In this document: positions 16,801 through 42,734 of the stretch, piece after piece | Position numbering within the stretch: position 1 is the stretch's first letter | Layout: the number at the start of each line of letters is the position of its first letter | Assembly (NCBI RefSeq): GCF_004664715.2 | Contig: NC_051079.1 | Coordinates: forward strand, 61,865,660 to 61,929,659 | Source of the DNA: Peromyscus leucopus | Lineage: Eukaryota; Chordata; Mammalia; Rodentia; Cricetidae | Direction: 5' to 3' | Length of the DNA stretch: 64,000 nucleotides | Position numbers and translations under genes: made by a program | Notes under the pieces: generated by a model | Told to the model about the DNA's origin: nothing | The model's input: only the letters and a program-made list of their open reading frames with translations | Database searches by the model: none

Positions 16801-18617
16801 CAGCAGCCCCATTCCCCTCCACCCCAGCAGCCCTACACGAACCACCAACGGCAGAACCGCAAGTGCGGGGCCTGTGCAGCCTGCCTACGGCGGATGGACT
16901 GCGGCCACTGCGACTTCTGCTGCGACAAGCCCAAATTCGGGGGCAGCAACCAGAAGCGCCAGAAGTGTCGTTGGCGCCAGTGCCTGCAGTTTGCCATGGT
17001 GGGTGGGGCAGGAAGGGTTAGGTGGATGGGCTAGGTTGGGCCCAGCCCACCCCTGTGTCTGGGAGCAGTGGGCAGGCCTGGTAGATGGGTGGGTGGTGTA
17101 GTGACCGTCGTGGAGGATGAGCAGCTGCTGTGCTGGGCTGAGTGAGTCCAGCTGTACTGCCATTGCAAACAGGAGACTGTAGAGGTTCAGTGGTGAGCGC
17201 GCGCTCGTGTAGGCAGCAGCAGCTTCTGTGCCGGCTCTGACAACGGGAAGTTAGCGGGCACGTTGAGTAGGGCAGGGTGGGTACGGTCGGATGGCACCAG
17301 GTTGACCACACCACCCAATTTTTCTCACAGAAGCGGCTGCTGCCCAGTACCGGGTCAGGGTCCGAGGAGGGAGCAGGACTGCCTCCATGTCGCCCTTGTC
17401 GAAAGAGGCCTGGTTCTCCTCGACGACGACTCCGTCGGATCGCTCCCTCAAAGGCCCCTTTGGCTGTGCTCACCACCCCACCAGGCCCTGCCCGGGCTTC
17501 AGCAAAGCAGCAAGCAGGTAGAGGCTTTGTGCTGCCCCCACCTGACACAGACTTTGTGTTTTTACAAGAGGGTGCCGCCAGTCCTGTGCAGGTGCCTGGC
17601 CCTGCCGCAGCTTCCTCGGAAGCCCCGTTACAGGTAAGGCTCTCCTCCCGCTGCTCCAAGCTCTACCCAGCCTTGTGCCGCGGATCTGAGACCAAGGCTG
17701 CTGCCCTCCTCCCTTATGCAGGAGGCCCAGAGTTGGGGTGTAGCCATGCCGCAGGTGAAGCAGGAGAAGACGGACGCCCCAGAGGAGTGGACATCAGGCA
17801 CAGGCTTCCCGACCTCTGCACTGCAGCCTGGCTACCCTAGCAAGGTTAGCGAGGCAGTGGGTGTCCTGGGGCTGCCGTGCAGGTTGTCCGTAAACAAAAC
17901 TGTAGTGAGCCCTGACGGCGGCGGCTGCGGCACTGTGAATAGTGACGGTGTGTTGATGAGGACCGTTCTCTTGAACTACCCAGCGTGTCTAGCAGGTGCC
18001 TTCCTCTCCATAGGCGGCTAAGTGTCTGCTGTACTGCCCAGCTCACAGGAGCCTGAAGATCGTTGAGGAGTTGGAAAGGTTCATAGACAGAGAGGTGGCA
18101 TTTAGTTATAAAAGCAAGGTCTGTCTGCATAATGGGTTAGCTAAAAACGGCCTCAGCTGGCCCTGCCCTAACTGCTGCCCTTCTTCAATCTTCCAGGCAC
18201 TAGACTCAGACCTTCCACCCGTGAAACAAGAGCCCCCTGGCCCTGAGGAGGATAGAGAAGAAAACAGAGAAGATTATGTCTCTGAATCAGTCCCGGAGGA
18301 GGAGGCAGGAGGGGTTGGCACACCAGTGGTCAGTGCTGGGGGATGTCGCCGCCCTACCCTGACCTTGCCTGCTCTCCTCCTGTCATGCTGACCCATGATG
18401 TTAATTCTTCCCTAGATCACGGAGATTTTCAGCCTGGGTGGAACCCGTCTCCGGGATGCAGCAGCCTGGTTGCCAAGGTGTGCCCCATATAGTTAGGTGT
18501 GGGGACGGGTGGGTGCCGGCCAGGTGTGGGCCCTGAGTTTTAAACGTGGGTCAGCAATTTGATTGGGTATAGAGGGACATAAAGGCCTACAATCATTACA
18601 GTGCACAGCCAGTAAGG

Positions 18618-18736: not shown

Positions 18737-21700
18737 GCGTGCAGCACTGTAAGCTTGCTCCTGAGACCCAGCCTGTTGGTATTCCAGGGCTCTCTTCTTG
18801 GGGAAGGAACAGAAGGACTGATGCTCCACAATGAGATTTGAAAGAAAACAGATAAAGTGAGGCTGGTCCTCAACTCCCTAAGAAAATCCTTTTAAGAGTC
18901 AGACTTGATATATCTAATACATTCTTACTCAGATCACCATTTGTGGTCTTGAAGGCCTTTGAAGTCCCCTGAGCCCATTGTTGGGTGAGCTGTTCCCTGA
19001 TGATGGGAAGAATGTGGATCACACAGATGACATTGGCCTTGCCCAAGCTGTAGAGTTGGTTAGGGGATTGGGCTTTAAGTGACTCTGTGGCTGAGTCTGT
19101 TTGTTTAGCTGTGTGATTTCAAGTGTACCCCCCACTTCCTCGAGTAGCCTCTGTGGGTAGGTTTGGGCTGTGCATCCCAAGCCTTTCCTGTTGAGTTGAC
19201 TGTTGCAGGTGCTGTGTAGAACTGCCCCACATGTCTAGTGACAGAAGTGAGGAGAGAGGCCATTGTAGTGGGAGGACCACCCCTATGGTTAAAAAACTCT
19301 TTAGCCAAGCACCTGGATTCCTTGGTTCCCACACACCAGTTTTAACTGCTAGAAACCTGCTAGTGTACCTTGTGGATAGCGGGTGGAGATGCCTGAGACT
19401 GCCTGGTGTACAGCAGCTGGGGACTTCCACTGCAGCCTGTGAGGCTCAGCTCCAAGGAGATGCACGATCCCGGGTTTCCAGGGGCTTAGGATTTTCTGGA
19501 AGATGAAATTGTTTCCTCTTAACAGAGAAGTGCTGTACTGTTTGCCTTGCTAGTCTGTAGAAGACAGAACAGTGAGTATAGGTGAAAAAGGAGAAATTGA
19601 TGCAGATGCAAAATAGTAGGAAATGGTTTTGTGATTCTGTTTTATACATGGCAAACCTCATTCAACAGACAGACCTGCTCCCTCTTCTCTAGGTCCAAGG
19701 ACCTTAAAAATCCTGAAGCTAAAATGCAGTAGACTGGAGGCCTCTGCTGACTGTAGGCCTGAAGGTGATATTTGCAGATCGGCTTTATGAGAATCAACCC
19801 TGATCTACCAGGGGCTGGGCCATGGTTTGGTTGCAGAGCTTGTTTGTGAATGAACCCTAGGAGAAAATCCTGCAAGCACAATCGAGGAACAGGCCTGCCC
19901 GGTCCTGGAAGCTTAGCGGAAGCCAGCTGGAGAGGAAGAGAAAGAGTAGAAGGCTGGGAGAACGTCTGCTCCTCCAAGGATCTCGAGGCGATGAGAAGTT
20001 GGATGTAGGGTAGGGAGGGATATAACTGAAGCCCCGACAAACAACTCAAACAAGCCATCTTCATAACTGTTTGTTGGTGGCTTCTGGATGAGACCTGGCA
20101 GTGTGTCTGAACATTTTCTCAGGGAAACAGCAGTTGAAATGCTACAGAATAAAGGAGGAAAAGGCATTGTTTGGTGAGCTCCTCCTGTGGAGAGCCACTT
20201 CCTAAACCCTCACAGGAGTCCTTAGGAAGACAGTGAGTGACATTGTGCACTTTTGCAGGAGGGGAAACAGACCCAGAAGAGGTGAATGTTCCCAGTGTCA
20301 GACAGCTGGTGTTGGTAGTCTAGAAATACATCAGGCTATAACAGCTTTCTTCTTTAATCCACTAAACTGTTAACTGCAATCTTTTGTGCAATAATGTATA
20401 TTACAGTAACAGTTTTAGTAACTTTGAAAATAGCAGTGGATCACTATGAACGCTAAGATATCCTTTACACTTTTGCCTCCATTGTGGTTTAGGGATTCCC
20501 AGACTGTGGGTGGATGGGGTCACCTTCTGGACAGAGCATTGATTCATTTGGAATCCAGATTCCCTGAAGGCCCTGGATGCTGCATAGGACCCCTGACTCC
20601 CGAAAGTGTGTTCTTGCCCACTGCTGGCTGACTGTTTACTTGAGCCCAGATGGTCTCCCTTTGGCCGGAGCAGTGCTTGGAACTAAAGCTGTCAGCCTGG
20701 CCCATCTTTTCCTGGCAGCATCTTTTCTCTGATGTCTTTTGTACTTGTTTCCTGCCCTCAGCCCAAATGTTTGTTAGGAGGCTGAATGAATTTATGCACT
20801 GAGTCCTGCCCAAGGGCTGGACTTGGCTCAGCCTTACCTCATTTTCTATCCTTAAAATGCCAAAAAGATATATAATTGGTTGCTTAGCCAGCTTTACAGG
20901 GCTAGGACTGAGTGCCTCGTCATCCTTTGTGTCCTGTGTGTGCCCCTTTGCTTTAACCTAGCCCCTAGGTAATTCAGATGGGGATTACTCATCTCTTATT
21001 TCCACCTCACGAGGCACAGCTCTCTGCCACCCTCTACTCTTGCTTTGTCTACTTCTGTCCTGGAATCATTGCTCTTTAACCCCCAGAGCACACCACTTGT
21101 CCCTAGTATTCTAGTAATCCTGACAGCGACGTTCTAAGAGTAATGCCTTTGGTTGGCATTTGACTTGTGAATGAAGATTCTGATTACTATGTATTGATTA
21201 GGGTACAATCAAAAGATCAGAACCACTACAACAAAGAATAGTGTATGTGTTGTAAGGGAATTTTGGGAGACATTTTACATTATATAATTTTGGGAGATGG
21301 TTTAATAGCCTCTAAGGCTGTCATTTGTATGTAGTGCTGGAACTTAAAAGTATTCAGGACAGTCAGTCAGAAAGGGAAGGTGGATGGACAAATGGGATCC
21401 CATGAACAAGAGTTGGAATTCAAGAAGATGGCCTGGAACCCATGTCAGTGTCTCATCGTCTCCAGCTTCGATGATGTCTGTGTCCTGCAGAAGCTAGTGT
21501 CCTTCCTCAGAGTGAAGTAGCATCTGACCTAGGACTAGAGAAGCTGAAGGAAGATCCCAGGGAAGTTGTAGCAGCTGAAGGCCTGCCTGTAGGACTTGCT
21601 GTTTCCCCATACCAAGGTGAGACAGCAGATTAATGACCACTTGTATGAACTGCAACATGCCTGGTATCCCTGCAACAACTTTCCAACAGCCTGCTGCTGC

Positions 21701-23033
21701 TGCCTCACTTCTGCTAACCACAATGTTTCTGGATTTTCTTAACTAGAAGTCTGTGGGGAAGGATTCTGGGAAGCATAGTCTAGTCAAGGTGACATGTTAG
21801 AAAGCCACCCTGCCATGATGCAGCTCCTAAAGGTCTCAGCAATCACCTGAGGATAACTGACAGAAGTACATTGGGGGAATCGTAAAGACCATGGATTCAT
21901 GATGGTCCCAGCAAGCAAAGAAATCCTGTCAAGCTCATCCATAACAGTCTTGCTGGTCTCAGCTGTATATGTGTTACTCATCCAAGTATTGAAAACTTGG
22001 CCCATAGTTATCACTGTACATGATACTGAGGTCTAGAAATGCAATTTTATAAAATGCATCAGTATATATTACAAGTGATACACAGATCTCCAGTTTATTA
22101 TGGACATTGATGCTCAAAATATAGAATCTAGTATATTATGGAGAAGCCAGTCCTTGTTTGAGTTTTTTGAGATGCTCCAGAAGTTGGAAACAACTTAATC
22201 GTTTCTATTTCTAAGCTGTTCTATTTTAAAATTATTTTAAAATAATTTTCTTGTTCTACTTATTGGTTTTTATGTTAGTTTTTCTTTGAGGAATGTTTGG
22301 TGGTGGTAACAGTGTTGACTGCTGTGGAAAATTTGGGATAGTGGGTGGCAAGATGAAGGTCAGTTCTGTCATTTCCCTAGGCTTCAGATTTCCATAGCTG
22401 CAGGCTAAGGCACTGTGCTACTCATCCACCTTGCAGTCTAAAAGTCTCCTCCACGCCTGGACTGGCTGAGAAGACCATTGGGTAGATTCTAAAGCTGGTA
22501 CCAGGCACCCTGGGGCAGAGTCTGCAAGCAGTCCCTCCTGTGGTACAGAGAAGCCGGTTCCACTCTTCAGAGGATGGTGGAACAGTCTGCGAGTTTCCTC
22601 ACTAGGCTCATCACCTGACTGCTCTGTGGTATGAGCTCAGGATGGTGGTGTGATGTCTGCAAGCAGCTGGCTGCCTCTAAGGGTCAGCTTCCCCAGGCTT
22701 TCCCAAACTCACAAACAGGACCTCTGTGGCTACATGAATCTCAAGGGTGTGGGGCCGGCAGCCCCAATCTCTGGGGTCTTTGACAAACCCTGCTCAAGGG
22801 GTTTCCTCCCTTCTGTGGAGAAAATATGTGCTGGGGACGAGGGGAGACCCACCCAAAGACCAGCACCTAGAGCCGCTCAGATGAAGGAGCTGCCCCTCTG
22901 GACATTGTTGGGGAACCCAGACAGCCTCTTAATTTTTTTTTTCTTTTTTGTTTGTTTCAGGCTACATAAACTGTTAGCAGTAAATGAAAATGAGTATTTT
23001 ACTCAACTGCAGTTGAAAGAAGAAATATTGTAG
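10774..23033 (+). CDS. MBD1: MBD1, methyl-CpG-binding domain protein 1 (whole gene, coding span)
   Basis: Nuclear repressor that binds methylated CpG through its N-terminal MBD and, in this family, recruits chromatin-modifying partners through a C-terminal repression domain. The coding exons are 10774-10883, 14093-14207, 14295-14491, 14569-14651, 14887-14927, 15305-15451, 15546-15674, 15855-15929, 16022-16132, 16215-16283, 16828-16998, 17331-17633, 17722-17844, 18197-18328 and 18416-18477, then either 19693-19732 or 22961-23033. All junctions are GT-AG and one frame runs through, giving 635 or 646 residues (human about 605, mouse about 636, from memory). MBD is at residues 1-70, CXXC1 about 183-231, CXXC2 about 232-274, CXXC3 about 360-416 and the repression domain about 520-622. 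The start is the exon 2 ATG, which begins MAEDWQDCPALGPGW as in orthologues. Oddities are an Ala/Gly tract in exon 4 and a 17b exon copied from CFAP53. Confidence 0.95.
12690..12890 (+). mobile_element. Degenerate B4/B1-type SINE
   Basis: Diverged 'aatcctagcactgg' box and an A-rich end (aaacaaaacaaaat). Divergence suggests an old copy. Confidence 0.55.
12985..13147 (-). mobile_element. B1 SINE, reversed
   Basis: T-rich left end, 'gagacaagg', 'gaccaggctggcc' and 'agattaaaggcatgtgctac' in the order of a reverse B1. Confidence 0.85.
13150..13900. repeat. Old mammalian interspersed repeat
   Basis: The 'agtcatacgttgctta' and 'tcttatgggactattgtgta' segments are like an ancient eutherian repeat I recognise by sequence but cannot name with confidence. 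It is heavily decayed; the open frame at 13,661-13,906 is not a gene. Confidence 0.35.
14093..14207 (+). CDS. MBD1: MBD1 exon 3: second half of MBD
   Basis: Acceptor ctcag|ccccac, donor CCCAAG|gtgctt. Encodes residues 37-75, including Arg44-Ser45 and the VELTRYLG and GILCYP segments that close the MBD fold. Starts in phase 2 and ends in phase 0. Confidence 0.95.
14295..14491 (+). CDS. MBD1: MBD1 exon 4: basic linker with Ala/Gly tract
   Basis: Acceptor cctccag|acc, donor CTTGG|gtgagt. A lysine-rich segment (NKKKKKPSKPAKAK, like a nuclear localisation signal) is followed by a 16-residue Ala/Gly run at residues 118-133 (bases 14,421-14,468). Human and mouse, as I recall, have an acidic DTDTAPAS-type sequence there. 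The flanking VGPQ and APASLPA segments are conserved. Confidence 0.93.
14569..14651 (+). CDS. MBD1: MBD1 exon 5: Cys-rich segment
   Basis: Acceptor ttttag|gtgc, donor CGAG|gtgagt. Encodes CCENCGIRLSWD and CKDCR, a four-cysteine cluster ahead of the first CXXC domain. Confidence 0.93.
14887..14927 (+). CDS. MBD1: MBD1 exon 6 (41 nt)
   Basis: Very short exon between caccag|cac and TTTAGG|gtaaga, encoding AQRIAFNREQRMFR, a segment conserved with human and mouse. It is phased so that exon 5 plus exon 6 restore frame before CXXC1. Confidence 0.93.
15305..15451 (+). CDS. MBD1: MBD1 exon 7: CXXC zinc finger 1
   Basis: 49 codons, phase 0 at both ends. Contains CGECTAC and CGACSIC and closes with KCERRRC. 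It lacks the KFGG motif of CXXC domains that bind unmethylated CpG, as is known for this finger in the family. Confidence 0.95.
15546..15674 (+). CDS. MBD1: MBD1 exon 8: CXXC zinc finger 2
   Basis: 43 codons, phase 0 at both ends. Contains CGVCRGCQTQEDCGRC and ends RRCFW. It also lacks KFGG. The neighbouring finger exons share phase, consistent with tandem exon duplication and with known exon skipping in this gene. Confidence 0.95.
15855..15929 (+). CDS. MBD1: MBD1 exon 9: optional 25-residue linker
   Basis: Acceptor ctgccag|cac, donor CCTACT|gtgagt; 25 codons in phase 0, starting HFAHRFRGH. It corresponds to an alternative exon in human MBD1 isoforms (HLAHR-type, from memory), so it is probably a cassette exon here. 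Confidence 0.8.
16022..16132 (+). CDS. MBD1: MBD1 exon 10: basic/proline linker
   Basis: Acceptor cttctag|ggt, donor GAGCTG|gtaagg. A basic start (GKRDCRKSGSK) leads to a proline-rich part (QPLPPRPASQHPEP). Phase 0 at both ends. Confidence 0.93.
16215..16283 (+). CDS. MBD1: MBD1 exon 11
   Basis: Acceptor tctgcag|cac, donor GAGCTA|gtgagt; encodes the conserved EFIYYCVDEDEL segment before the third CXXC domain. Confidence 0.94.
16828..16998 (+). CDS. MBD1: MBD1 exon 12: CXXC zinc finger 3 (KFGG type)
   Basis: 57 codons, phase 0 at both ends. Contains CGACAAC, CGHCDFC and KPKFGG (residues 395-398), the motif that lets this CXXC domain bind unmethylated CpG in the family. MBD1 can therefore read both methylated and unmethylated CpG. 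Confidence 0.96.
17331..17633 (+). CDS. MBD1: MBD1 exon 13: basic, low-complexity linker
   Basis: Acceptor tctcacag|aag, donor TTACAG|gtaagg. 101 codons with an Arg/Pro-rich part and the conserved GFVLPPPDTDFVFLQEG segment. An internal CAG|gtagag at 17,519 is read through to keep the conserved sequence. Confidence 0.93.
17722..17844 (+). CDS. MBD1: MBD1 exon 14
   Basis: Acceptor tatgcag|gag, donor AGCAAG|gttagc; 41 codons. Contains MPQVKQEKTDAPEEW, with a VKQE motif of the SUMO-acceptor type (psi-K-x-E). Start of the repression-domain region. Confidence 0.92.
18197..18328 (+). CDS. MBD1: MBD1 exon 15: acidic part of repression domain
   Basis: Acceptor cttccag|gca, donor CCAGTG|gtcagt; 44 codons. 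Contains a second VKQE motif (PPVKQEPPGPEED) and a strongly acidic run conserved with mouse and human. Confidence 0.94.
18416..18477 (+). CDS. MBD1: MBD1 exon 16: core of transcriptional repression domain
   Basis: Acceptor ccctag|atc, donor CCAAG|gtgtgc. Encodes ITEIFSLGGTRLRDAAAWLP, the conserved C-terminal segment that in the family contacts the co-repressor MCAF1/ATF7IP. Ends in phase 2, so either 17a or 17b can follow. Confidence 0.95.
18594..18740 (+). repeat. Duplicated unit with two (TG)n tracts
   Basis: The stretch 'attacagtgcacagccagta' followed by a TG tract occurs twice, about 80 bp apart (18,594 and 18,676), each copy ending in a 'cactgtaa' segment. It lies in intron 16 of MBD1. 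Confidence 0.9.
19693..19732 (+). CDS. MBD1: MBD1 exon 17a: conserved terminal exon
   Basis: Acceptor ttctctag|gtcc with a pyrimidine tract. Completing the phase-2 codon from exon 16 gives ...PRSKDLKNPEAKMQ and TAG, matching the human C-terminus (SKDLKKPGARKQ, from memory). This is the ancestral ending. Confidence 0.88.
20148..20153 (+). terminator. MBD1: Poly(A) signal for MBD1 17a transcripts
   Basis: AATAAA about 0.42 kb after the 17a stop codon, followed by a 'tgtttggtgagctcct' GU-rich-like stretch. Plausible, not proven. Confidence 0.55.
20160..22940. other. MBD1 sequence between alternative last exons
   Basis: 2.8 kb of intron for 17b transcripts. Several small open frames occur, none with splice signals or a known domain. 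I see no full-length repeat in it. Confidence 0.5.
22961..23033 (+). CDS. MBD1: MBD1 exon 17b: terminal exon copied from CFAP53 exon 3
   Basis: Acceptor gtttgtttcag|gctac. Spliced to exon 16 it encodes RLHKLLAVNENEYFTQLQLK, three more residues and TAG. Mouse MBD1, as I recall, ends with nearly the same sequence. The exon and its acceptor align with CFAP53 exon 3 (32,381-32,554): the shared tttttgtttgtttcag, the same phase and similar coding (RLRELLASEENEYFTEMQ). In the MBD1 copy the homologous CFAP53 frame is broken by deletions after the stop, and the copy ends at a lost donor (TTCAGgaa, where CFAP53 has TTCAG|gta). Confidence 0.88.
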
Positions 23034-23745
23034 GAGAGAAAAAACAATTATTATTAAGAGAAGAAAGACATTCTTTTGTGGCTGAAAAGCTGAACCCGGA
23101 ATTCAGGAAATGGAATCCAAATCTAGAGATGTACCATGTAGAAAACCTGAAGTGGTTGGGTTACAAATCATTAAGCATGCTAATTTTGAAGGAAACTGAC
23201 CTTAAGAGGGCATACACATGAGTTGCACTCAGACTATTAGTATCCGTCAGTGACTGACCTTGTTACTGACCCTCCCTCGTCTACTTTTCTGTTCTTATTC
23301 TCCCCCACTTAAGAGCAGGGGTACCAAAGCAGCATTCATAATTGGCTCTTCAACATTATAACTCCATCTTACTGTTGATGGGAACTACAGCTGTGGTCCC
23401 CACGAGTGCTGGGGACAATCTAGTTCCCTGGACTATGTTGCCAGTTTTGCCTGAGTTTCTGGCTCAAGAATTGAGTAGCTGAACTTGTGATCTGCAAGTG
23501 CTGGTCCACTCTGATTCCTCCGTTCAGACTATCGTGTTCAGCCCAGTAAGACTACTTACTGCCCCACCAGTGCGTCTGACCTGCCTGCTTCCTGTGTTCA
23601 CCCAAGTGTAAGCCCCATTCTCCGTTCGGTGCAGTGGGAAGATTCTCTTCACAGATATTACTGGTTGTGTGGCTCTATATAGCACTTAAGCTCTTTGAGC
23701 CTTAATCGATTTCATTATAAAATAAAGCTAATGATACTTTCAGTT
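23034..23745 (+). other. MBD1: MBD1 17b 3' UTR and poly(A) signal
   Basis: Begins with the remainder of the CFAP53-derived copy (to about 23,105) and continues to AATAAA at 23,721-23,726. An A-run at 23,811-23,822 lies downstream. The 3' end is inferred. Confidence 0.6.
23721..23726 (+). terminator. MBD1: Poly(A) signal for MBD1 17b transcripts
   Basis: AATAAA about 690 bp after the 17b stop and 574 bp before the CFAP53 start codon, followed at some distance by the GT-rich 'aaggttgtttctgg'. Confidence 0.6.
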
Positions 23746-24129
23746 CCTTCAACCCTGTAAGATTGTTGTCAACCTCAAAGGTTGTTTCTGGAAATATTTT
23801 GCAAATTGTAAAAAAAAAAAAATCAAGCATAATTTTGCCATGTGATTATTACCGCCATCAATATTAACTTCAAGGTAGTAGAAAATTTAACCTTGTCACT
23901 CATGGCCCACTAACCTTTCACGTGCTTTTAGGTCAATTACAGGTGACAGCGAACTGGATTGTTTTGACCCTTCAGTTAGAGGTGTGCCCCGTCTGGTTCC
24001 ATTACTCCACTACCACCACTCCCCCATCCAGTGGTGGGGCATCTGGCAAGCCCTGGAGGACGAGAAGGAGGTGTTCCTGCCAGGGGCCGGGCAATGGATG
24101 GGCGGGGTGATAACAGCAGAGTGCTGTTA

Positions 24130-24299: not shown

Positions 24300-24368
24300 A
24301 TGTACAGCCAACGGTTTGGCACTGTCCCCAGGGAATTTAAAGGCCCCACTCCCAAGGCGGTGATCATA
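24300..24368 (+). CDS. CFAP53: CFAP53 exon 1
   Basis: ATG at 24,300, donor ATCATA|gtaagt; 23 codons, phase 0. MYSQRFGTVPREFKGPTPK is clearly orthologous to the mouse N-terminus. Confidence 0.93.
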
Positions 24369-25518: not shown

Positions 25519-28500
25519 CAGACTGCTAAAGCTGAACCAGGCCACTGAATACTGTGTGCTTACAGAAAAAGAAATAGGAGGCAAAAGAAGGCAGAGTTGT
25601 TTCTTTTTCTCTGGTGTATAAGTGTGTGATAAGAAATGCAGACATGATGCCAAGTGGTGGTGGTGGCGGCGGCGGCGGCGGCGGCTGCGCACGCCTTTAA
25701 TCCCAGCACTTGGGAGGCAGAGCCAGGCGGATCTCTGTGAGTTCGAGGCCAGCCTGATATACTGAGCAAGTTCCAGGATAGGCTCTAAAGCTACACAGAG
25801 AAATCCTGTCTCAAAAAACAAAACAAAACAAACAAACAAACAAAAAAAACCAAAAAAAAAAAACCAAAAAACAAAACAAAACAAAAAAAAAAAACAGAGA
25901 GAGAGAGAGAGAAGAAAAGAAATGCAGATATGAAAGGATGAGAGGTAACAATTGATGAAGCATAGACTCTCAGAAATTCTCTAGGAAAAAGCAATTAAAA
26001 AAAAAGAATAGTGAGGTGAGTAGCCACCTAGTGTGTAGGCCAGATTCAAATCTAGATGAAGTCACTGTTCTTTAAAATAGGAACCTGAGATGTTATAGTA
26101 GCCAAGTCCTTCCTTGATCTTCACAAATCTTTGCTCTTTCTTTAGTGTGGTCAGAGCATTAGTGTCCATTATTATAGTTGCTAACCACATATGACTTCAC
26201 TTCTGGAAATGTGTTGAGTCACATTTTGAAAAGATAATATTCTGGATATATTGGATAAATAAAATATATTATCACAATCAATTTCCTATTTTCACTTAAC
26301 TAATTCAGTTACAAGAAAAACTTCAGTTATGTATCTGTAGTATATTTCTATTGAACAGTGTGGATTTTGGTCATTGACAAGCCTGTTCCTTGATTGGTAT
26401 CACCTTTTTCCGTTTTTTAGACAATTCAAGGTCCTTCCTTCATCCAGAGACTGGGAACTCAGCTAGGTGTGGTGATACACGCCTGTAACTACAACATTTG
26501 GGAGGGAGAGGCAGATGATCAGTTAAAGAGAAACCTGGAGCCAGCCAGAGCTACATGATACCATGTCTCAATGCCCCAAGCCTTCCAAGGCTTCCAGGTC
26601 TAGCTACCACCCACGCTATTTCTCATCAACTCTTACCCATGTTCCCCCTTTAGTCAAAGTGTACTTCAGGTCTTGATTCCTGTCCTGACAGCTATCAATA
26701 ATTGCATCTAGCTGGCCTGTGAATTGTTCTCAGCCCACCCTTGTCTACCAGAAGCCTAAGTTCTTGCTGTGTCTCCTGCCCAAGTGACCCTGAGCTACTT
26801 CATTGTCACAGAATCTGTACTCATAAAATACCAGGATTGTTAGAGAATAGTAGTTTAATTAAATTACTCTAGACTCCAAAGAGTTTTGATGTGGATTTGC
26901 TTCTCATGAGACACTTCCTACTCTTCTCTTGGGTCTGCTTCCCAGTTCATCCTATCAGCTGTGTCTAGGTACCTTTTTGTGTGCCCCAAACCCGAAACAT
27001 TTCTGCCCCGCCTGCAGGGCTTCAACGGGTTCTCGACCACCCTAAGGAGGGAATGTAGGGACAGGAGATACAAAGGAAAGACACCAAGTCTGGATTCTGA
27101 TCAAGGTGCACTTTATTTCTCTTCCACAAAGGTTTATATAGCTCCACAGGGTGGGGGGGGGAGCAAGAAGCTGTCATCTGCATAAGGTGGGGCAAGCTAA
27201 CAGGATGTTTGTATAGGATGTTTACAGGGTGAGAGGGTCAAGGGCTCTGACTCAGTGAGTGTCCTGTTGCTAGGCAACCTGACTGTAAGATGATCTAGTT
27301 TCCTGTCTTATTGGGGTTCTGTATTTTTCCACTAACTAGAGATTCTGTCCTTGTCCCTGATACTTTTCATCAGTTTATCTTTGGATGCTGTGTTTGTTTA
27401 TTTCCTTTCAATGCTCTACTACAAATCCCCAACCCAGTATCTGATAATCCTGGCACCAATGTTCTAAATGTAATTCAGCAGAATAATGAGTCCGCCTGTG
27501 CCTTCTGGGTTTATTTCTATGAATGAGCACCCACATGCCACCACTCACCCAAGGATTACTGCATAAAACTGCTGCTGAAAACATGATGTTCAAAATTACT
27601 GATTTCTTGGTGGCACCAAAAGGTACAGAGACTGAATCAAGACCACCCAGAAACACTTGTTCACTCACTTATATTGAGAGACTAAATGTGGGAAGAGTAG
27701 GCTCAATGCTAGTGATACAGAAATGATAAAGATGTAGTCAAGGAGATTTCATTTAGTGTGTGGATACATATTCAAAGTGTGTGGGCATGTTCAATGTTTG
27801 AGTGACCGTTGTGCCAAGAGAATACATTTAAAGTGTAGCATCCCAGGAAACGCTGAAGGAAGACCCCAGGCCCAAGTAGGATGCAAGAACAAAGAGCGTT
27901 TATTATACCAGCACGCATGTGCAGTTGTTTATGGTGGTATTTTATTTGTACTGAAATGTGATTTTCATTGTATGTTAAGAAATAAAGTTGCCCGGGGGTC
28001 AGAGCTATTAGAGCCATAGCAAGAGCGTGGCGGTGGTAGCGCACGCTTTTAATCCCAGCACTTGGTAGAAGAGCTAGGTAGATCTCTGTGTGTTCAGGGA
28101 TACAGCCAGCATTGGAGACATACGCCTTTAAGACCTGGAGGGCGGTACTTACAGGCAGTGACGAGGCAGTCATGTGTTTGGGTTTACAACCAACGAGAAG
28201 GCAGAACAGAAAGACTATTTAAAGACAGACACACAGGAAGTAGCTCTCTTTCGGGGAAGCTAGGAGCACTGCAGGAGGTAAGATTTTAGCTCTGAGCTCT
28301 GACCTCTCGGCTTTCTCTTTTATATTGGTTCTGTGTTTTTTATTTTAATAAGACGGTTGGTTACATCTACAGTTGTTCACCTGGACAAAATGGCGGTGAC
28401 CCCGAGAGGGACTGGTAGGCTCCTTTTAAGTACAGCTAAAGGACGTTTCAGGGTCAACTACATAATAACTGCTTGGTTAAGCAGGCAGCAGTTACATTAG

Positions 28501-29772
28501 TATATTTCTAATTGGCTGTGGTTTAGTCTTATCATTTTTGGACACATCTGCATAAGCTCTGAAGTGGCCCAGAAGGGGCTGCTGGGTTTGTCCTTGAGAC
28601 ACTGTTGAAAGACCCCCAGGGGAGATCTTCCTTCAGGAGAGACCCCAAACCCAAGGAACACGCCGAAACCACAGATCAGATGCAAACAGCAAGAGGGTTT
28701 ATTCAGATACACAGGTACCTGGGGCAAAGTCTCTCGGAGGACTTGCGCGCCTTCCTAGGGCAAGGGGGACTTTTTATAGGATCCCAGGGGCAGAGGCGTG
28801 GTTACAGAAGTGAGAAGCATAGTTACAGGGTTCCTATTGGTTGTTTTAAAGAAGGCCAGGGTGAACTTGGGGACATATTTTTAATTCTCGGAAATTTGAT
28901 GTGTGTGGCTGACTTGGCCTTGCCTAGGGTACAGTGGGTGTTTTCCCAGCCCAGCTGCTTATTCCTCAAGGCCGGTGGCCGACTACAGTTATCTCTCTCA
29001 AGGCCGGGTGGCCGGCCATAAATATCCTGTTTTGACTCAACGGTTTTTCTCCCAAGGCCGGTGGCCAACCACAGTTATCTCTCTCAAGGCCGGGTGGCCG
29101 GCCACAGCTGTGAACCCCTGTTTTTCTGGTTCTTGCCTTTCAGAATGGTGTTTCTTAGGCTAAGTTATTGGGACGGGGGGGGGGCATTTCATTGGCCCAA
29201 CGCCCCATGTCCTCATAATGGAGTGGGGGTCTTTCACTGTGAGGCTGACTTAGACCCTCTGGGTTTGTCCTCTCCCTCGACCCTGAATGTAAGGGTCTTG
29301 TAGATAAGTGACCCTTTGTCGGAAAAGACACCTGTTTGTCCTTCTCAGAGAACTGGAACCTAAATTCAGCTGTGAAAATGGGAGAGTTTAACCCCTTCAA
29401 AAGAAACTGAAACTATCCCCAAAATGTCTGTCACATAGGTCTTGCATTCAAACTTTTAAAAACCAACCAAATCAGAGTAAATTTCTAATAGCAGCCCCCT
29501 CCTCCAGTCTTCTTTCCTTTCTTCATTTCTTCCTTTTTGGTCTTTCACAATTTAGTACATGTATAGTTAAATAGTAGCCCTCTTTTTTTTTTTCATTGAA
29601 AGTGTTCTGATGCTAATAACTGATTACAGTGTGCGGACAGTAGGTCACAGGGGCAGGCTTGAGAAAGCCCCTAATTCTTGTTATCCAGGTCTAGCCTATT
29701 TGAAGTACTTTGAGCATAACATTTACATCTCTGGTTGACTAAATAATTTCTAGAACCTAGTCTGTTAAATTT

Positions 29773-29811
<39 letters not shown>

Positions 29812-29837
29812 CTATCATCTATCTATCTATCTATCTC

Positions 29838-29896
<59 letters not shown>

Positions 29897-29916
29897 CTAT
29901 CATCTATCTATCTATC

Positions 29917-29956
<40 letters not shown>

Positions 29957-29994
29957 CCTATCTATCTATGTATCTATCTACTATGTATCTACTA

Positions 29995-30046
<52 letters not shown>

Positions 30047-33000
30047 ATCTATCTGTCTATATTAGTTCTTTGAGAGCTTCCAGTTCCATGCCTGTTTTGC
30101 TTGTATTTACCCCAACTCCTCCCATGTCCACCTCCTTCTTCCATACTCACCCACCTTGTATGCTCTTTCTTTTTTAACCCTTCAAGACCGATTTATGCTG
30201 CCCCAATATTCTTGGATGTGTGATCTTCCACTGAGTGTGGTCAGCTTAACCAGGGGATACACTCTTAGTGAAAGTGCTCTCCCTCTCTCTTCCTCTCTCT
30301 CTTCTTCTCTTTCTCTTCCTCTTCCTCTTCCTCTCTCTCTCTCTCTCTCTCTTCTCCCCCCCTCTCTCCCTCCCTCCCTGCCTCCCCTCTCCCTCTCAGC
30401 AGCTAACAGTTGTTGCCATTTGCTCCACAGCTAGTGATGGGATTGTGTGCCCAGCTTCCCTTTCCATGTTGGGATTCAGTCTGGCTTGGGCTTACCCAGT
30501 TTTTGTGCTGTTGCGGTCACTGTGAGTTCATATGTGCAGCTCCCCTCCTGTGTCCAGAGGATGTTTTCTTGTCATCCACTGCCCCTGGCTCTCACTCTCT
30601 TTCTGCTCTCTCTTCTGCAATGATCCCCGAGCCTTGGAAGTGGGAGGGGGTACTGGAGTGCAGTATATATGTTTCCCTTGGGGCTGAGCATTTTGTAGTC
30701 TCTTATTCTATGCACTTTGACCAGTTCTGGGTGTCCATGTTAATCACCATCTACTGCAAATAGAGGCTTCTGGTGAGGGTTGAGGGATGTATTGACCTGG
30801 TGGGAATATGCAGAAAAGTGTGCAAAAAGCTGTTCAAAATTTAACTTTAATACTTTTTTCTAATTTTAATCAAAGGACTTTTTAAGAAAAATAGATGCTC
30901 TATAACTCATGATTTGACTTACGTTTCTTGAATGATGGTGCAAAAATGATAGGCATTCAGTAGGTTGCACTTTAAAATGTGAATTTGGATCTTTTCGTGG
31001 ACTAGCAATATATAGTAAGGTGACTCTCAAGGCCTTGGGCATGCCGTTAAGGTGGAGCCTACACCAGGCTCAGGAGAGATCGTGAGGCCGAGTAACAGAT
31101 ACTCTGCAGTATTTGTGACGCTTGGTAGTTTATGTGTGTTAAATGCATTTTAGTATCTCCTGTTTACAATAGGTTTTATCAGAATGCACCTCATCACAAG
31201 TCAAAGACTCTCTGTGCTTGAGGCTAATTTGAAGGATATCAAACTCAGGGAACAAAACAAGTTAGCCTTTAGATGCTTAAGCTGCTTTTTTGGTTGTAAC
31301 AGCAACAAGTTGTAACACACTTGTAAGAAGTTGTGACACACAAGTTTTTTTCTATCCACAGTCAGGCTCTTGAATTTTGCTTCTTGTCAATGACAGCTGT
31401 TGTTTGTCTTCAGCGGGCCAAGCATCCCAAGGCCCATAGGGCTGAGCAACATCTGAAACGAATCCAGCGCAGCTACCACAAGTATCACACTACTTTGGCG
31501 TCCATTAAGTCCAACGAGCAGGATCGCCTGCGAAGTGACTGGCTGGAGCACAATGACCGCAAGTACTTCGACAGCCTGGTGCGAGCGAGGACCAAGGATG
31601 CCATGCAAGGCTTCATCCTCAACACCGAAGAGAGACGCAACAGGTAAGGCTCGTGAACCCGGTAGCCCAGGCGCCCAAGTGTTCACACGTTTGATTCCTT
31701 TGAGTACTGGGGCTCAAACCCAGGGCCTCTCCTAGGCTAGGCAAGTTCTCTAACATTTCGTTATGTCCTCAGCTCACCCATGTTTAATATTGTGCATGAA
31801 ACAATCAAGTGAAATAAAGGTCCTGCTAAGTTTTTCATAGTAAAACCAGTAACTGTTGTTTGTGATTATTTTTGCTTATGTTAACAACATTTTTATGGAA
31901 AAAGAGTATACTGTTGTATGGTTTGATTCTTTAATTAAAATCTGTCCACTCTGCTACTTTTGAAGATAAGCATTCATATTTTACCTGTATATTATCAAAT
32001 AAAATATGGCACAGATTAAGGTCTTATTTTATGGAGACCCACAGTGACTTTTTTTTAAACATTATTTATTGGAGGGAGGGAGTGTCATTGTGCCCGTGGA
32101 GTTCAGGAGACAACTTTTGGGAGTTGGTTCTCTCCTTCCACTGTGTGGGTCCCAGGGTCAAACTCAGGTCATCAGACTATTCTTTCAACCGAAAAAGAAG
32201 TGGGGTTCTGAAGACAAAACTCATGCTTGCAAGGCAGGCGCTTTGCTGAGTTATTTCCTCAACTTAATAGTCATCTTTTATTTCTGAAGAAACAGACACT
32301 AATTCAGAAGAACAAAAGTTAGTTGGAATGATAATTTTAATGAATAAATTACTTAGTTGCTTTTTGTTTGTTTGTTTCAGGCTACGTGAACTTTTAGCAT
32401 CAGAAGAAAATGAGTATTTTACTGAAATGCAATCGAAAGGAGAAACCATTGAAGAGAAAAAAGACAAAATGAGAGAGAGAACCAAGTTTTTACGAGAGAA
32501 GAAGGAGAAAGAGAGGCAGGATTTTGTGGCTGAAAAGTTGGAGCAGCAGTTCAGGTAATAAAGGGGAAGAGTGCACAAGTGGAGTGTGGACACGGGACAC
32601 GGGACTGTTAGACAGACTATGGAAGGGAGACGGGCAGAAGTGCTTCGTCAAGGGAAGGAAGCAGACACTCGGTTCCCTTCCTCAAGACCATGATGGATCC
32701 CTGAGGTGGGAGGGAGAACATTAGACAGAAAATGGTAGAGTATGTGGCAATGAACAACGGGGGCCTTAAAGGGGAGGGGTGAGAGGAAGGAGAGGGGGAG
32801 GGGAGGGGGGGAGAGCCCCCTCCCATTGGAGCACCTGGGATGGGTGGGGGTTGGGCACAGAGGAGCCTTCTCAGAGAAAGCCCTGGGATCAACCTCAGGA
32901 ACAAAGGAGATGCCAGATTTTGTAACTTTCTGGAGGCTGGTGGACGCTTCACACCAGTGATTTAGTTCAACATAACCTTCATGACAAAGGGCACGGAAGA

Positions 33001-33719
33001 GCCAGGATAAATTAAGAGCTGTCAGAGCATAGACTGCCTTCTAGTCCTCTGGCAGGCGGTGGCTGTGGGGGGCAGGGCTTGACTTCTTTAGGCTGTGGAA
33101 TCTCTTTTAAGAGTGACCACTGTCTTAAAGGGCAGTCTTGCATTCTAACTGGTATATTAAAAATGATTTAGGAAAGCTAGCTCACAGTAAATCGTAGCCT
33201 TAGAAGGGTGTGCACAGTAATCATACTTTAAATCTTGGTAATCACTTAAAATTCACAGATTAAATTCATAGATCACTTAAAACACAAGTGCTCAGTTTGT
33301 CTTAAACCCTGCTCTAGGGCTCTGGGCTTGCCTCCCAAGATTGGAAGTGCCAAGTGAGGGTCATTTTCACCTCTGCCAAATACATGGTGGGTCGCCGTTT
33401 ACTAGTGTCCGATTATTGCCTGGTACCGTGATCAATTCTGATCACCTAGACTTGTGATCCACTTCCTGACACAGACTACAGAGACCCTTCGCTTTCAGAT
33501 CCCTGGTCTTCTCTGTACTCAGTTTGATCCCATGATTGTCTCTAGTGTCCCTTCTCATTTTGCCTTTCTACCTTAAGATGTCCTGAATCTGTTCTGATTT
33601 CATGAGACGTTTTGAAGGAAGTACCACTCCTTTGAAATGACCTATTGTGTGTTACATCATCAGAGTGTGGCAGATGCCTTTAACAGCATAAACTAAGACA
33701 CATTCCTTACCTTTAAAAG

Positions 33720-33769
<50 letters not shown>

Positions 33770-36700
33770 CCATCCCTGTCCTAGGTAGCTTCAGCTATCA
33801 ACACAGCCTAGAGCTTGCTGAGAGAAGCCTCAGTCGAGGGATTGCCAGATCAAGTTGGCCTGTGGCCATGTCGGTGAGGAATTGTCTTGATTGATGTGAG
33901 AGGTCCCAGCCCACTGTGTGTGGCATCATCCCTAGGCAAGTGGTGGCCTGGGCTGTATAAGAAAGCTAGCAGAGCTGTGGAAGGGGGACCTCTCACAATG
34001 TACCTCATTTAGGCAAATAATTATAGGCAACTAAAGAATGTTGAGAGTGGGAGAATTAGTCTTCCAGGGGTGAGCTCCTTGGTTAGTGTTACAGTGCCAA
34101 GTGGTCAGCCCTGAAATCAAATAAAAGGGACATTGGACAGACTCAGCAGATTGTATTCATATCTTTATGCCTTTATATATCCCCAGGCATAAAGCAAAGA
34201 TATTTGGAAAAGTCTCCATGATTGCTGTTTCTTCCTAGTTTTTAGAGTAAGAACATATTTATAACTAATTTATTATTCTGTGGCTATATTTTCACTGCCT
34301 CTTCTACTAAGAGGTGGACATTAAGGACATTGCTGTCATGGGGCTAAGAGCTGTGCACTGCTTTTGCATGTTCTGTTTGTAACACACAGATCTGGCAGTT
34401 CACAATCATCTGACAGTCCAGCTCCAGGGGATCTGCTGCCCTCTTCTGGACTCCATTGGCACCTGTACTCATGTGCACATACCCACATATAGACAGACAC
34501 ATATAGACATAATTTAGAAAACACAAAAAAACCAAATCTTTAAAAATTCCCATCATATTTCTCAAGTTGGTTTCTTCATTTTGCTCCCTTTTTTAAATGC
34601 AAGTCCTTCAATGTAGTGATTATCACATGATAGGATTATCAGTTTCATATGTCTTTTAATTTTAAGATTTTAATCTGCAGAAGGGATTTGAAAAGGTCAA
34701 ATTTTTCCTGGAAGTGTTTAAAACATAGCCATTAGTCTTTTCAAAAATTCATTAATAAATGCACTTATTATTTTATACTTATGAGCTTTTTGTCTGCATG
34801 GGTGTAAGTGCACCTGGTGCCTAGTGCCCAAGAAGGCCTTGGAACTGGAGTTACAGACAGCTGTGAGCTGCCATGTGGGTGCTGGAACCAAACTAGGGTC
34901 CTCTGCAGGAGCAACCAGGGCTTTAACTGCTGAGGCATCTCTCTAGCCGGAATACATTCATTTTTGAGATGAGGTCTAACTTTGTAATCTAGGCTATCTC
35001 AATACTCACATTGTAGCCCAGGCTGGCCTTGAATTGAAGATATTTCTACCTCAGCCTCCCAAGTCCTAGGACTGCCACCACCCCTGGCTTCAATAAATAT
35101 TCAACCTCTTTGATAGAATACTACGGTGATTGGCTTAAGGAGAATGAATATCAGTTAGGTTCTCAAGTCACTGAACATGAATAAGCAAAGGGACGTCTCT
35201 TGTTAAGTTGCATTCGGGACCAGAGGGTCTAAGAGGAAGTCCCCACTTAACTTGCAGAATACAAAGGGAATACAAGAGTTCATTTTCACAGCACTTGCAA
35301 AGCAAGGTGAGAAAGCAGCAAAATTAGATCAAGATGTGGTCCAGAGAACCATGAAATCTTCATCACTGACCACAGTTCTATAGACTTTCCATTAACAATA
35401 CACACTACACTAATTCTTCCTGCTAGAGCAGTGGTTCTCAACCTGTAGGTCTAGACCCCTCTGGGGGTAGAACAACCCTTTCATGGGGGACTTGTATCAC
35501 ATATCCTGCACATTGTATATTTACAACACGATTCATAATAGTGATAGAATTACATTTATGAAGTAGCAACAAAAATAATTTCATGGTTGGGGGGTCACCA
35601 CAGCATGAGGAACTGTATTAAAAGGTCGCAGCGTTAGGAAGGTTGAAACCACTGCAGCAGAGGATAATAGGAAAAGTACGCTGCTGTAATGAGTAATGGG
35701 CATAGGATGCAAGAACAGCTAGCTGGTAAGAAGAAATTCAGACTTAGGAACCAGAGAGAACAGGTTTCTGGGCAGGGGTTTTAAAGATGAGGCAATTGGC
35801 CCGGATAAGTTAATTCTTTTTGTTTTGTTTTATTTTTGAGGCAGGGTCTCACTGTGTAGCCCTGGCTGTCCCAGAACTCACTATGTAGACAAGGCTGGGC
35901 CTTGAACTCATAGAGATCTGCCTGCCTCTGCCTCCCAAGTGCCGGAACTAAAGGTGTGCACCACTACACCTGGAGAGATAAGTTAAATTTTTGATCCAAA
36001 GTCACACAGGAGATGGCAGAGCAAGGATTCAAGGCGATCTGGCCTGATGGCAGGACCGTATCTTAGCAGGGTCTATCCGCTTGGACCTGCCCCCTGCCTG
36101 TGGCTTCCTCACACATCCTCTGTCCAGATGGCCTGCATCTGGCTGGTTTTGGTTGTCCTTGCTCCTGTGCGTTACTGTGTAGTCAGATGTCTACACACAG
36201 CGCTGCCCCCACGGAATGCTGGGCTTTGCCCTTTTAAATCTCCCTTGCAGGGAACGTTATGAGGAGCTCCGCAGTAAACTGGTCAGCGTCCACGAGCTGA
36301 AGGTGGGCGAGGAACGGAAGGCCCAGGTGGCGTTCAACGAGGAGCTGAAGAGGCAAAAACTGGTGGAAGAGCAGCTGTATGCGAGGCTCTGGGAGGAAGA
36401 CAGACTAGCCAAGGAAAAGCGAGAAGCTTACGAGGAGAGGAGACAGAAAGCGCTGGTGGAAAACACACGCCTGGGGCTGGATGCTCAAGTCACTAGCAAC
36501 CAGGCGCAGAGGCAGGCTGAACAGAGGATGAAGGAAGAGGAGGCCCGCCTCCTGGTGAGCCCTTCCAAATGCCTGTGATGGGGTGATGCGCTCCATGAGG
36601 GTAGCGCTTTCTGGCTGGTTAATATAGATTTTCAGGCTTGGAGTTTGGGGCTGGTCCACTAAGCACATTTCCACTTTGAAGTCTCATGGCTTCTTAATAA

Positions 36701-39270: not shown

Positions 39271-39308
<38 letters not shown>

Positions 39309-42285: not shown

Positions 42286-42289
42286 CTGG

Positions 42290-42650
42290 GGCAATGGGGG
42301 CTGAAGAAGGGATAGACTCTATGTACAGAAAAGCTGGGGTGAGATGGTCCAGCGCTGTCGTGGAGACGCACTGAGAGCATCTTGGAACCTCAGCACATTT
42401 ATTAGGTGTGTTAGCTGATAGAGGGTCTCTGTAGGGGAGCAGTCTCAGGATGCAGCTGCTACTTTATACACACACTGATCTTAGCTAGAGGTCAAATATT
42501 TCTCAACATCTGCACTTGGACCAGAGGAGGGCCTGGCTGTTCTCATGGGTCTGAGGCACTGGCATCTCCAGCTTGGCTGTGCTCCTGTCAACAGCACATT
42601 TGCTCAGGACTTTATCTGCTTCCTGTATCTTTCCCTTTGGTATTTCTTTT

Positions 42651-42734
<84 letters not shown>

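Follow-up and report, generated by a model that had tools for sequence, protein, structure and literature searches.

Exon gain from neighbouring genes has been described in published accounts as the joining of a neighbour's exon material to a gene, the main route being at the level of DNA and not retroposition. Tandem chimerism, or cis-splicing, has been reported for MBD1 and CFAP53 (CCDC11), the same gene pair as here (PMC5053695, PMC4450057, PMC11995180), and in human lung an MBD1-CFAP53 read-through RNA was PCR-validated in 1 of 64 patients (PMC5053695). Under the used-together-fused-together proposal, mutational mechanisms may replace RNA-level joining by DNA-level fusion (Bolotin, Melamed, Livnat 2022; PMC9925542). 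The available text of a review of MBD1 deals with its CXXC isoforms and contains no occurrence of the term 'C-terminal' (PMC4394467). No account of the origin of MBD1 exon 17b was found in the literature consulted on MBD1 with CFAP53 or CCDC11, and words of its tail peptide gave no match in a literature search.

The locus studied here lies in a 64,000-nt stretch of the Peromyscus leucopus genome (the window), in which MBD1 is followed on the same strand by CFAP53. The alternative last exon 17b of MBD1 resembles the published cases of neighbour exon gain in its source and in its DNA-level route, but differs from them in that a single exon was copied, the donor gene remains whole and a 23-residue tail was gained instead of a domain. 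The read-through RNAs employ CFAP53's own exons, whereas 17b is a second genomic copy with a terminated transcript; as a separate genomic exon of MBD1 it is not accounted for by joining at the RNA level alone. Compared with used-together-fused-together it is an exon copy and not a full fusion, and the main text of that proposal mentions MBD1 0 times (PMC9925542). We consider it very likely that 17b arose when CFAP53 exon 3 was duplicated, 3' splice site included, at the level of DNA, that the copy pre-dates the common ancestor of living placentals and that it was turned into an alternative last exon. The exon itself is already annotated, its tail being present in isoforms 2 and 4 of mouse MBD1 in UniProt.

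Table 1. Exons and signals of the MBD1 3' end and the CFAP53 5' part, in window coordinates.
Feature	Position	Strand	Remarks
MBD1 exon 16, last common coding exon	18416..18477	+	phase-2 donor AG|GTG; translation ITEIFSLGGTRLRDAAAWLP(R)
Alternative last exon 17a, coding part only	19693..19732	+	(R)SKDLKNPEAKMQ-stop; tail matches Peromyscus models P0011 and P0020
AATAAA, candidate poly(A) signal for exon 17a	20148..20153	+	inferred from sequence
Exon 17b 3' splice acceptor tract	22939..22960	+	18/22 nt identical to CFAP53 exon 3 acceptor
Exon 17b coding part and stop, (R)LHKLLAVNENEYFTQLQLKEEIL-TAG	22961..23033	+	copy of first part of CFAP53 exon 3
Non-coding rest of exon 3 copy within 17b	23034..23107	+	several deletions; donor lost
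AATAAA, candidate poly(A) signal for exon 17b (inferred)	23721..23726	+	760 nt into exon; 579 bp before CFAP53 ATG
CFAP53 exon 1 coding part, MYSQRFGTVPREFKGPTPKAVII	24300..24368	+	phase 0 at end
CFAP53 exon 2	31414..31643	+	phase-0 acceptor; out of frame if joined to MBD1 exon 16
CFAP53 exon 3, original of copy	32381..32554	+	174 nt; enters and leaves in phase 2
CFAP53 exon 4 (end approximate)	36251..36554	+	

CFAP53 exon 3 (32,381-32,554) and its splice acceptor match window positions 22,939-23,107 with E=7e-23. When 22,001-24,000 was compared with 26,001-45,000 by blastn, the match resolved into a coding-side block with 88 of 108 positions identical (81%, E=7e-23; 22,941-23,047 against 32,361-32,467) and a post-stop block with 31 of 38 identical (82%, E=2e-4; 23,074-23,111 against 32,522-32,559). 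None of 1000 dinucleotide shuffles reached the score of either block (70 against 14.9 +/- 2.6 and 40 against 19.1 +/- 3.1 respectively), and chance similarity was rejected on this ground. The post-stop sequence as a whole keeps 61 of 76 aligned nucleotides, an identity inflated by the free placement of 31 gap positions, and the donor is lost (CAGGAAAT vs CAGGTAAT). Of the acceptor tract, a 20-nt score is reached by 15 of 1000 shuffles; its 17-mer TTTTTTGTTTGTTTCAG occurs with up to two mismatches solely at the 17b and exon 3 sites (0 and 1 mismatches) on both strands of the window, and allowing three adds 12 further matches, each with 3 mismatches. No homology was detected past the acceptor tract or past the exon end, the 300-nt and 1-kb flanks scoring like shuffles. 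A search of the 2,475,057,610-base source genome with 22,940-23,120, passing over simple repeats and very common words, detected 17b and exon 3 and no third copy. Within the window, tblastn with a cattle CFAP53 model recovered the gene's own exons plus 22,959-23,045 and 23,051-23,125 (E=1.9e-7), the sole further match up to E=5 being at E=0.40. Several alternative MBD1 ends, among them 17a and 17b, follow exon 16; 17b shows CFAP53 ancestry, and the other MBD1 3' exons gave no match in this search.

Joined to MBD1 exon 16, exon 17b reads in frame as RLHKLLAVNENEYFTQLQLKEEIL-stop, and the P. leucopus MBD1 model P0001 ends with the identical tail. The intron phases agree, exon 16 leaving and 17b entering in phase 2, and between CFAP53 exons 2 and 3 the frame of exon 16 continues in exon 3 alone. 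The tail comprises 23 codons plus the shared R, with the TAG at 23,031-23,033. The earlier note was right about the phases, the reading frame, the lost donor and a stop after 24 codons (23 and the shared R), and its central reading of 17b as a duplicate of CFAP53 exon 3 serving MBD1 as an alternative last exon agrees with the alignment, the in-frame joins and the P. leucopus model. As features of the DNA, 17b bears its own acceptor, stop and candidate poly(A) signal. Many MBD1 isoform models are predictions. In mouse, the UniProt isoforms 2 and 4 (P0184, P0181), which bear out the statement in the earlier note that mouse MBD1 ends alike, and the further entries P0171 and P0182 carry the tail. 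The rows P0041, P0172, P0182 and P0183 with the source label 'lgn' (2,545-3,135 nt), which we take to mean SRA-assembled contigs, encode the joined exon 16-17b ORF. Together the mouse entries and these contigs are suggestive of a spliced 17b mRNA. An AlphaFold model of P0001 built with 31 sequences has a mean pLDDT of 39, and about 43 in the tail, too low to judge tail helicity.

Of the 120 MBD1 rows listed by a tail search (the best 120 of 458 at E<=10), 112 terminate in the 17b tail as counted by eye, where the regular expression used for the conservation set caught 110; beyond them the scores drop from 56 bits to 32. At least 49 named species among the matches listed carry it, with sloth, armadillo, elephant and manatee among them, and all four placental superorders are represented, so the event would be much older than the date before the mouse-cricetid split first proposed, which is too young. 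No non-placental row is among the 120 listed matches, the presence of marsupial MBD1 models in the database being uncontrolled, and no catarrhine row with the tail is among them, where clustering at 90% may hide such rows; capuchin tails are altered (PRKLLVNANEYF). All 23 residues are identical in the sloth, elephant, ground squirrel, colugo, jaguarundi and horse models, and the tail is therefore probably under purifying selection across placentals. In an alignment of 31 models, majority identity averages 0.93 over the final 24 residues, compared with 0.79 in the median window of that length and exceeded in 43 of the 575 windows, figures biased upwards since the models were picked as tail bearers and species with a decayed tail go unlisted. 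The commonest non-rodent tail, LRKLLAVNENEYFTELQLKEEAL, matches the CFAP53 chain of 7rro, presumably cattle, at 17 of 21 residues, and the Peromyscus tail does so at 15 of 21 (both by eye); outside rodents, too, the exon thus resembles CFAP53, contrary to one outcome that would have told against the earlier note. This PDB chain carries the name MBD1.

That the sequence passed from CFAP53 to MBD1, as first proposed, is supported by solved structures: the exon 3 stretch aligns with chains of 8snb (E=8.9e-18), 9d5n (9.4e-7) and 8g2z (7.5e-6), and a weak alignment is obtained with 6u42 (E=0.17); of these we take 8snb to be from sea urchin, 8g2z from Tetrahymena and 6u42 from Chlamydomonas. With the organisms so assigned, its presence in outgroup chains is the ground for rejecting the opposite direction. 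The earlier note's picture of a C-terminus derived from a cilium protein is apt as to ancestry, though not as a claim of ciliary function. We also considered, and rejected, gene conversion as a means of keeping the copies alike. CFAP53 reads EESGYF in dog and EENGYF in puma where ENEYF is kept in the 17b of fox, dingo and jaguarundi, and mouse 17b has NEKEYF against EENEYF in chain 8i7r, presumably mouse; as residues changed in one copy are kept in the other, there is no sign of concerted change among the few residues compared. Same-residue codons of the window pair are spelled identically in 10 of 12 cases, which might hint at conversion or at a constraint on the RNA, though the codons are too few to decide.

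The most likely origin of 17b is a duplication of the exon within the locus, at the level of DNA, that predates crown placentals. A retrocopy, in which partial CFAP53 cDNA was inserted upstream and then exonised, might likewise leave homology ending near both exon borders, but a copy of spliced mRNA would be without the intron-side acceptor tract found at 17b, exon 2 or exon 4 sequence, which such a copy would carry joined to it without introns, was not detected next to 17b by tblastn in the window (neutrally decayed pieces could escape), and the sole genome copy found is local and on the same strand; this origin is very improbable. The preference for DNA duplication in the earlier note is thereby upheld, although the upstream 'intronic homology' on which it leaned amounts to the acceptor tract and goes no further. 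A serious contender, which we rate somewhat short of probable, is that a large segment spanning MBD1-3'/CFAP53-5' was duplicated in tandem and that selection spared exon 3 and its acceptor alone; this would be a possible mutational step inside the main explanation and not an exclusive alternative to it. The copies lie on the same strand 9.4 kb apart and neutral flanks would vanish over such time; against this, no remnants of CFAP53 exons 1-2 or introns were detected by tblastn and flank shuffles, as decay would predict likewise. On the intron side the homology spans about 22 nt, a short stretch for placing recombination breakpoints, and any extent or mechanism assigned to the duplication is accordingly tentative.

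What has kept the exon invites two further readings. It could be a decayed, roleless copy reported merely because gene predictors extend MBD1, as its early stop, downstream deletions and altered capuchin form would allow, but the identity of the tail among distant placentals and its presence in UniProt-named mouse isoforms and 'lgn' contigs make this hardly credible. Alternatively 17b might be kept mainly as RNA, a splice decoy that catches MBD1 read-through bound for CFAP53 and makes it terminate at the poly(A) site of 17b, the encoded peptide being of secondary importance. The read-through modelled in 23 named taxa and validated in human lung, the candidate AATAAA upstream of the CFAP53 ATG and the retained post-stop sequence would suit such a role; the amino-acid-level conservation of the tail is unneeded by it, and the gap placement noted above weakens the post-stop figure. 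We regard it as unlikely, if less so than a roleless copy.

Under the favoured local duplication, the copy of CFAP53 exon 3 now sits some 9.4 kb upstream of its source, in the stretch that separates MBD1 17a from the start of CFAP53, and its frame would have been kept because the phase 2 in which exon 16 ends is also the entry phase of exon 3. An apparent 1-nt deletion, a stop after 23 codons, the missing 5' splice site and a poly(A) signal farther downstream would then have turned the copy into a terminal exon. The choice between 17a (13 codons including the R) and 17b (24 including the R) would be made by alternative last-exon splicing and poly(A) choice and would alter the residues after the conserved exon 16; the tail may have a function of its own and may be coupled to the repression domain, of which the SETDB1/ATF7IP complex is a known partner.

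MBD1-CFAP53 fusion models, counted from the Pfam domain column of model rows, occur in the 23 taxa mentioned above, and a single dog model splices MBD1 exon 16 straight to CFAP53 exon 3, the junction type of 17b. The earlier note had not remarked on this read-through link. Models of the two genes are often merged in databases, and caution is called for. We offer as a speculative and rather doubtful extension that a chimeric RNA was assimilated into the genome: an in-frame exon 16-exon 3 read-through would have come first and been useful, after which a copy of this very exon was fixed upstream as a private MBD1 exon, now encoding the favoured tail and also shielding CFAP53 from MBD1 read-through as a splice decoy and terminator.

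The CFAP53 ancestry of 17b would supply an origin for a conserved alternative C-terminus of the methyl-DNA reader MBD1, and presents a clean natural case of an exon moved between neighbours with both genes intact. As models from living species join MBD1 to CFAP53, in one case at the exon from which 17b was copied, the question whether chimeric RNA precedes DNA fusion becomes testable at one locus.

Exon 17b, which like 17a is an alternative last exon that can follow MBD1 exon 16, is very probably a homologous DNA copy of exon 3 of the neighbouring gene CFAP53 that is used as a last exon. Blastn aligned the two exons in two blocks (E=7e-23 and 2e-4), and none of 1000 dinucleotide shuffles equalled the score of either block, so the similarity proposed in the earlier note is real. 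A search of 22,940-23,120 against the whole 2.48-Gb source genome, skipping simple repeats and very common words, found two places only, namely 17b and CFAP53 exon 3, while tblastn of the window with a cattle CFAP53 model returned CFAP53's own exons, 22,959-23,045 and 23,051-23,125, with a single additional match (E=0.40) up to E=5. Identity extends over 18 of 22 nt in the acceptor tract, 56 of 69 aligned nt in the coding part and 61 of 76 in the rest of the exon, where the copy has 31 gap positions. The match ends a few bases from the end of CFAP53 exon 3, where the donor GT is now GA in the copy, confirming the proposed donor loss. The acceptor tract is informative because its 17-mer, at up to two mismatches, has no other site in the window and because a copy of a spliced mRNA would be without it. 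The upstream intronic homology formerly claimed holds for this tract and goes no further, as the 300-nt and 1-kb flanks on both sides do no better than shuffles. The two exons also share an exact 18-nt run, GAAAATGAGTATTTTACT (22,986-23,003 and 32,406-32,423), and spell 10 of 12 same-residue codons alike, perhaps more than expected for a copy this old.

Features of the MBD1-CFAP53 interval in the window
Feature	Position	Strand	Remark
MBD1 exon 16	18,416-18,477	+	donor phase 2
Exon 17a	acceptor join at 19,693	+	joined to exon 16 reads RSKDLKNPEAKMQ-stop
Exon 17b	acceptor join at 22,961	+	joined to exon 16 reads RLHKLLAVNENEYFTQLQLKEEIL-stop
Possible poly(A) signal of 17b	23,721	+	
CFAP53 start	24,300	+	
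CFAP53 exon 3	32,381-32,554	+	

The window itself corresponds to C17:61,865,660-61,929,659 of the source genome. MBD1 spans about 12 kb of the window, and its exon-joined query is closest, among the matches listed, to the P. leucopus model P0001 (93%; P-numbers denote protein rows of the database searches). Additional alternative MBD1 tails, such as ...AVWLPRAGNREGKMDVK... and ...GWPGTHVSLSPPP..., are modelled in other mammals, and a similar reading occurs between 17a and 17b near 21,400-21,500 (region about 21,340-21,640).

CFAP53 is the source of the copied exon, since its exon 3 stretch aligns not only with four close solved CFAP53 chains (7rro, 9cpc, 7ung and 8i7r) but also with the distant chains 8snb (E=8.9e-18), 9d5n (9.4e-7), 8g2z (7.5e-6) and, weakly, 6u42 (0.17), entries that we take to include axonemes of sea urchin, Tetrahymena and Chlamydomonas.

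A search for the C-terminal residues encoded by 17b (the tail), using the final 41 residues of MBD1 in a sloth model as query, gave 458 proteins at E<=10. Among the best 120, 112 end in the 17b tail (49 species names by our own count), seven in 17a and one is a dog MBD1-CFAP53 fusion; the score drops from 56 to 32 bits directly after the tail-bearing rows. These represent Euarchontoglires (rodents, colugo, capuchins), Laurasiatheria (carnivores, horses, rhinoceros, pigs, sheep, porpoise, bats), Xenarthra (sloth, anteater, armadillo) and Afrotheria (elephant, manatee), and the copy is therefore older than living placentals; the earlier dating to before the mouse-cricetid split was too young. 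No non-placental was among these best 120 of 458, in a database that may contain no marsupial MBD1 models, so the copy may be older still. Nor was any catarrhine, though clustering may hide such rows, human ones included. In capuchins (P0058, P0060) the tail is changed to PRKLLVNANEYFTELQLKEEAL, which, with no catarrhine among the matches listed, may reflect relaxed constraint in monkeys and apes. The manatee model P0190 reaches the tail via other sequence rather than straight from exon 16, and P0103, an MBD1 protein of Cricetulus griseus, is labelled histone-lysine N-methyltransferase MLL in its source record, perhaps a misnaming due to the common CXXC domain. A 360-bp gap between the human MBD1 transcript NM_001204139 and CFAP53, given in PMC5053695, suggests a human MBD1 transcript ending at about the 17b position.

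Within the tail, LRKLLAVNENEYFTELQLKEEAL is the counterpart of CFAP53 LRELLASEENEYFTEMQLKEET. Its K, V, N and L are unlike all CFAP53 residues examined and are common to the models of sloth, elephant, ground squirrel, jaguarundi and horse, which places about four replacements before the placental radiation and none later in those models. The final two residues seem, from Peromyscus DNA alone, to be due to an apparent 1-nt deletion. Across 31 models, mean majority identity was 0.93 for the tail against a median of 0.79 for same-size windows (43 of 575 higher), a figure biased upwards because the models were drawn from the 112 for bearing the tail and about 13 are mouse-like rodents. Even so, some placental models that are roughly 100 million years apart have identical tails, which implies, as judged from proteins, purifying selection.

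Mouse MBD1 ends in the same tail, as the earlier note proposed, in UniProt isoforms 2 and 4 (P0184, P0181) and in the entries P0171 and P0182, which go under the names Mbd1 protein and unnamed protein product. Exon 16 plus the tail is also encoded by contigs with the source label 'lgn' (P0041, P0172, P0182, P0183), which we take to be SRA-assembled. Together these indicate that the exon 16-17b mRNA is spliced, since the contigs measure 2,545-3,135 nt whereas the gene is several times longer.

CFAP53 itself is also reached from MBD1. A junction search gave 608 proteins at E<=1, and of the best 120, 98 from 23 named taxa have Pfam domains of MBD1 as well as of CFAP53 (table read by eye); among the matches listed these are mostly carnivores and ruminants, with pangolin, a bat and the rodent Scotinomys. 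By script, exon 16 continues via an intergenic exon or CFAP53 exon 1 in 80 of 111 rows new to this search or fused, and by eye in nine further mustelid rows. In the dog model P0189, exon 16 is followed directly by CFAP53 exon 3 (AVWLPRLRELLASEESGYFTEMQ), and in the bat model P0307 it joins exon 4. These fusions are gene models, and neighbours can be merged by automatic pipelines; human RNA is evidence independent of them. As described in PMC5053695, RNA joining exon 14 of NM_001204139 to CFAP53 exon 2, with the frame not kept, was PCR-validated in normal lung of 1/64 patients. Prostate studies (PMC4450057, PMC11995180) place MBD1-CCDC11 (CCDC11 being CFAP53) among 16 starred fusions passing six criteria in prostate cells, and link MBD1-CFAP53 RNA with worse outcome in prostate cancer. 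In the window, exon 16 joins CFAP53 exon 3 in frame and exon 2 out of frame, so that of these two the copied exon is the in-frame partner; this is no proof that read-through came first, because any retained reading frame needs it.

We propose that CFAP53 exon 3 was duplicated locally at the DNA level, that a frame change and stop in the copy and loss of its donor followed, and that the resulting terminal exon, with its possible poly(A) signal, alters the end of MBD1 through the choice of alternative last exon. The MBD1 repression domain presumably adjoins this end, and our guess is that last-exon choice tunes it. Less probably, 17b would be kept mainly for its RNA, as a putative decoy intercepting MBD1 read-through into CFAP53, which would account both for the retained post-stop sequence and for its position just before CFAP53. 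The tail itself is already annotated; no description of its CFAP53 ancestry was found in the open-licence literature searched. Exon transfer between neighbouring genes is a known kind of event (PMC2926785), and what is unusual here is the living read-through of the same gene pair.
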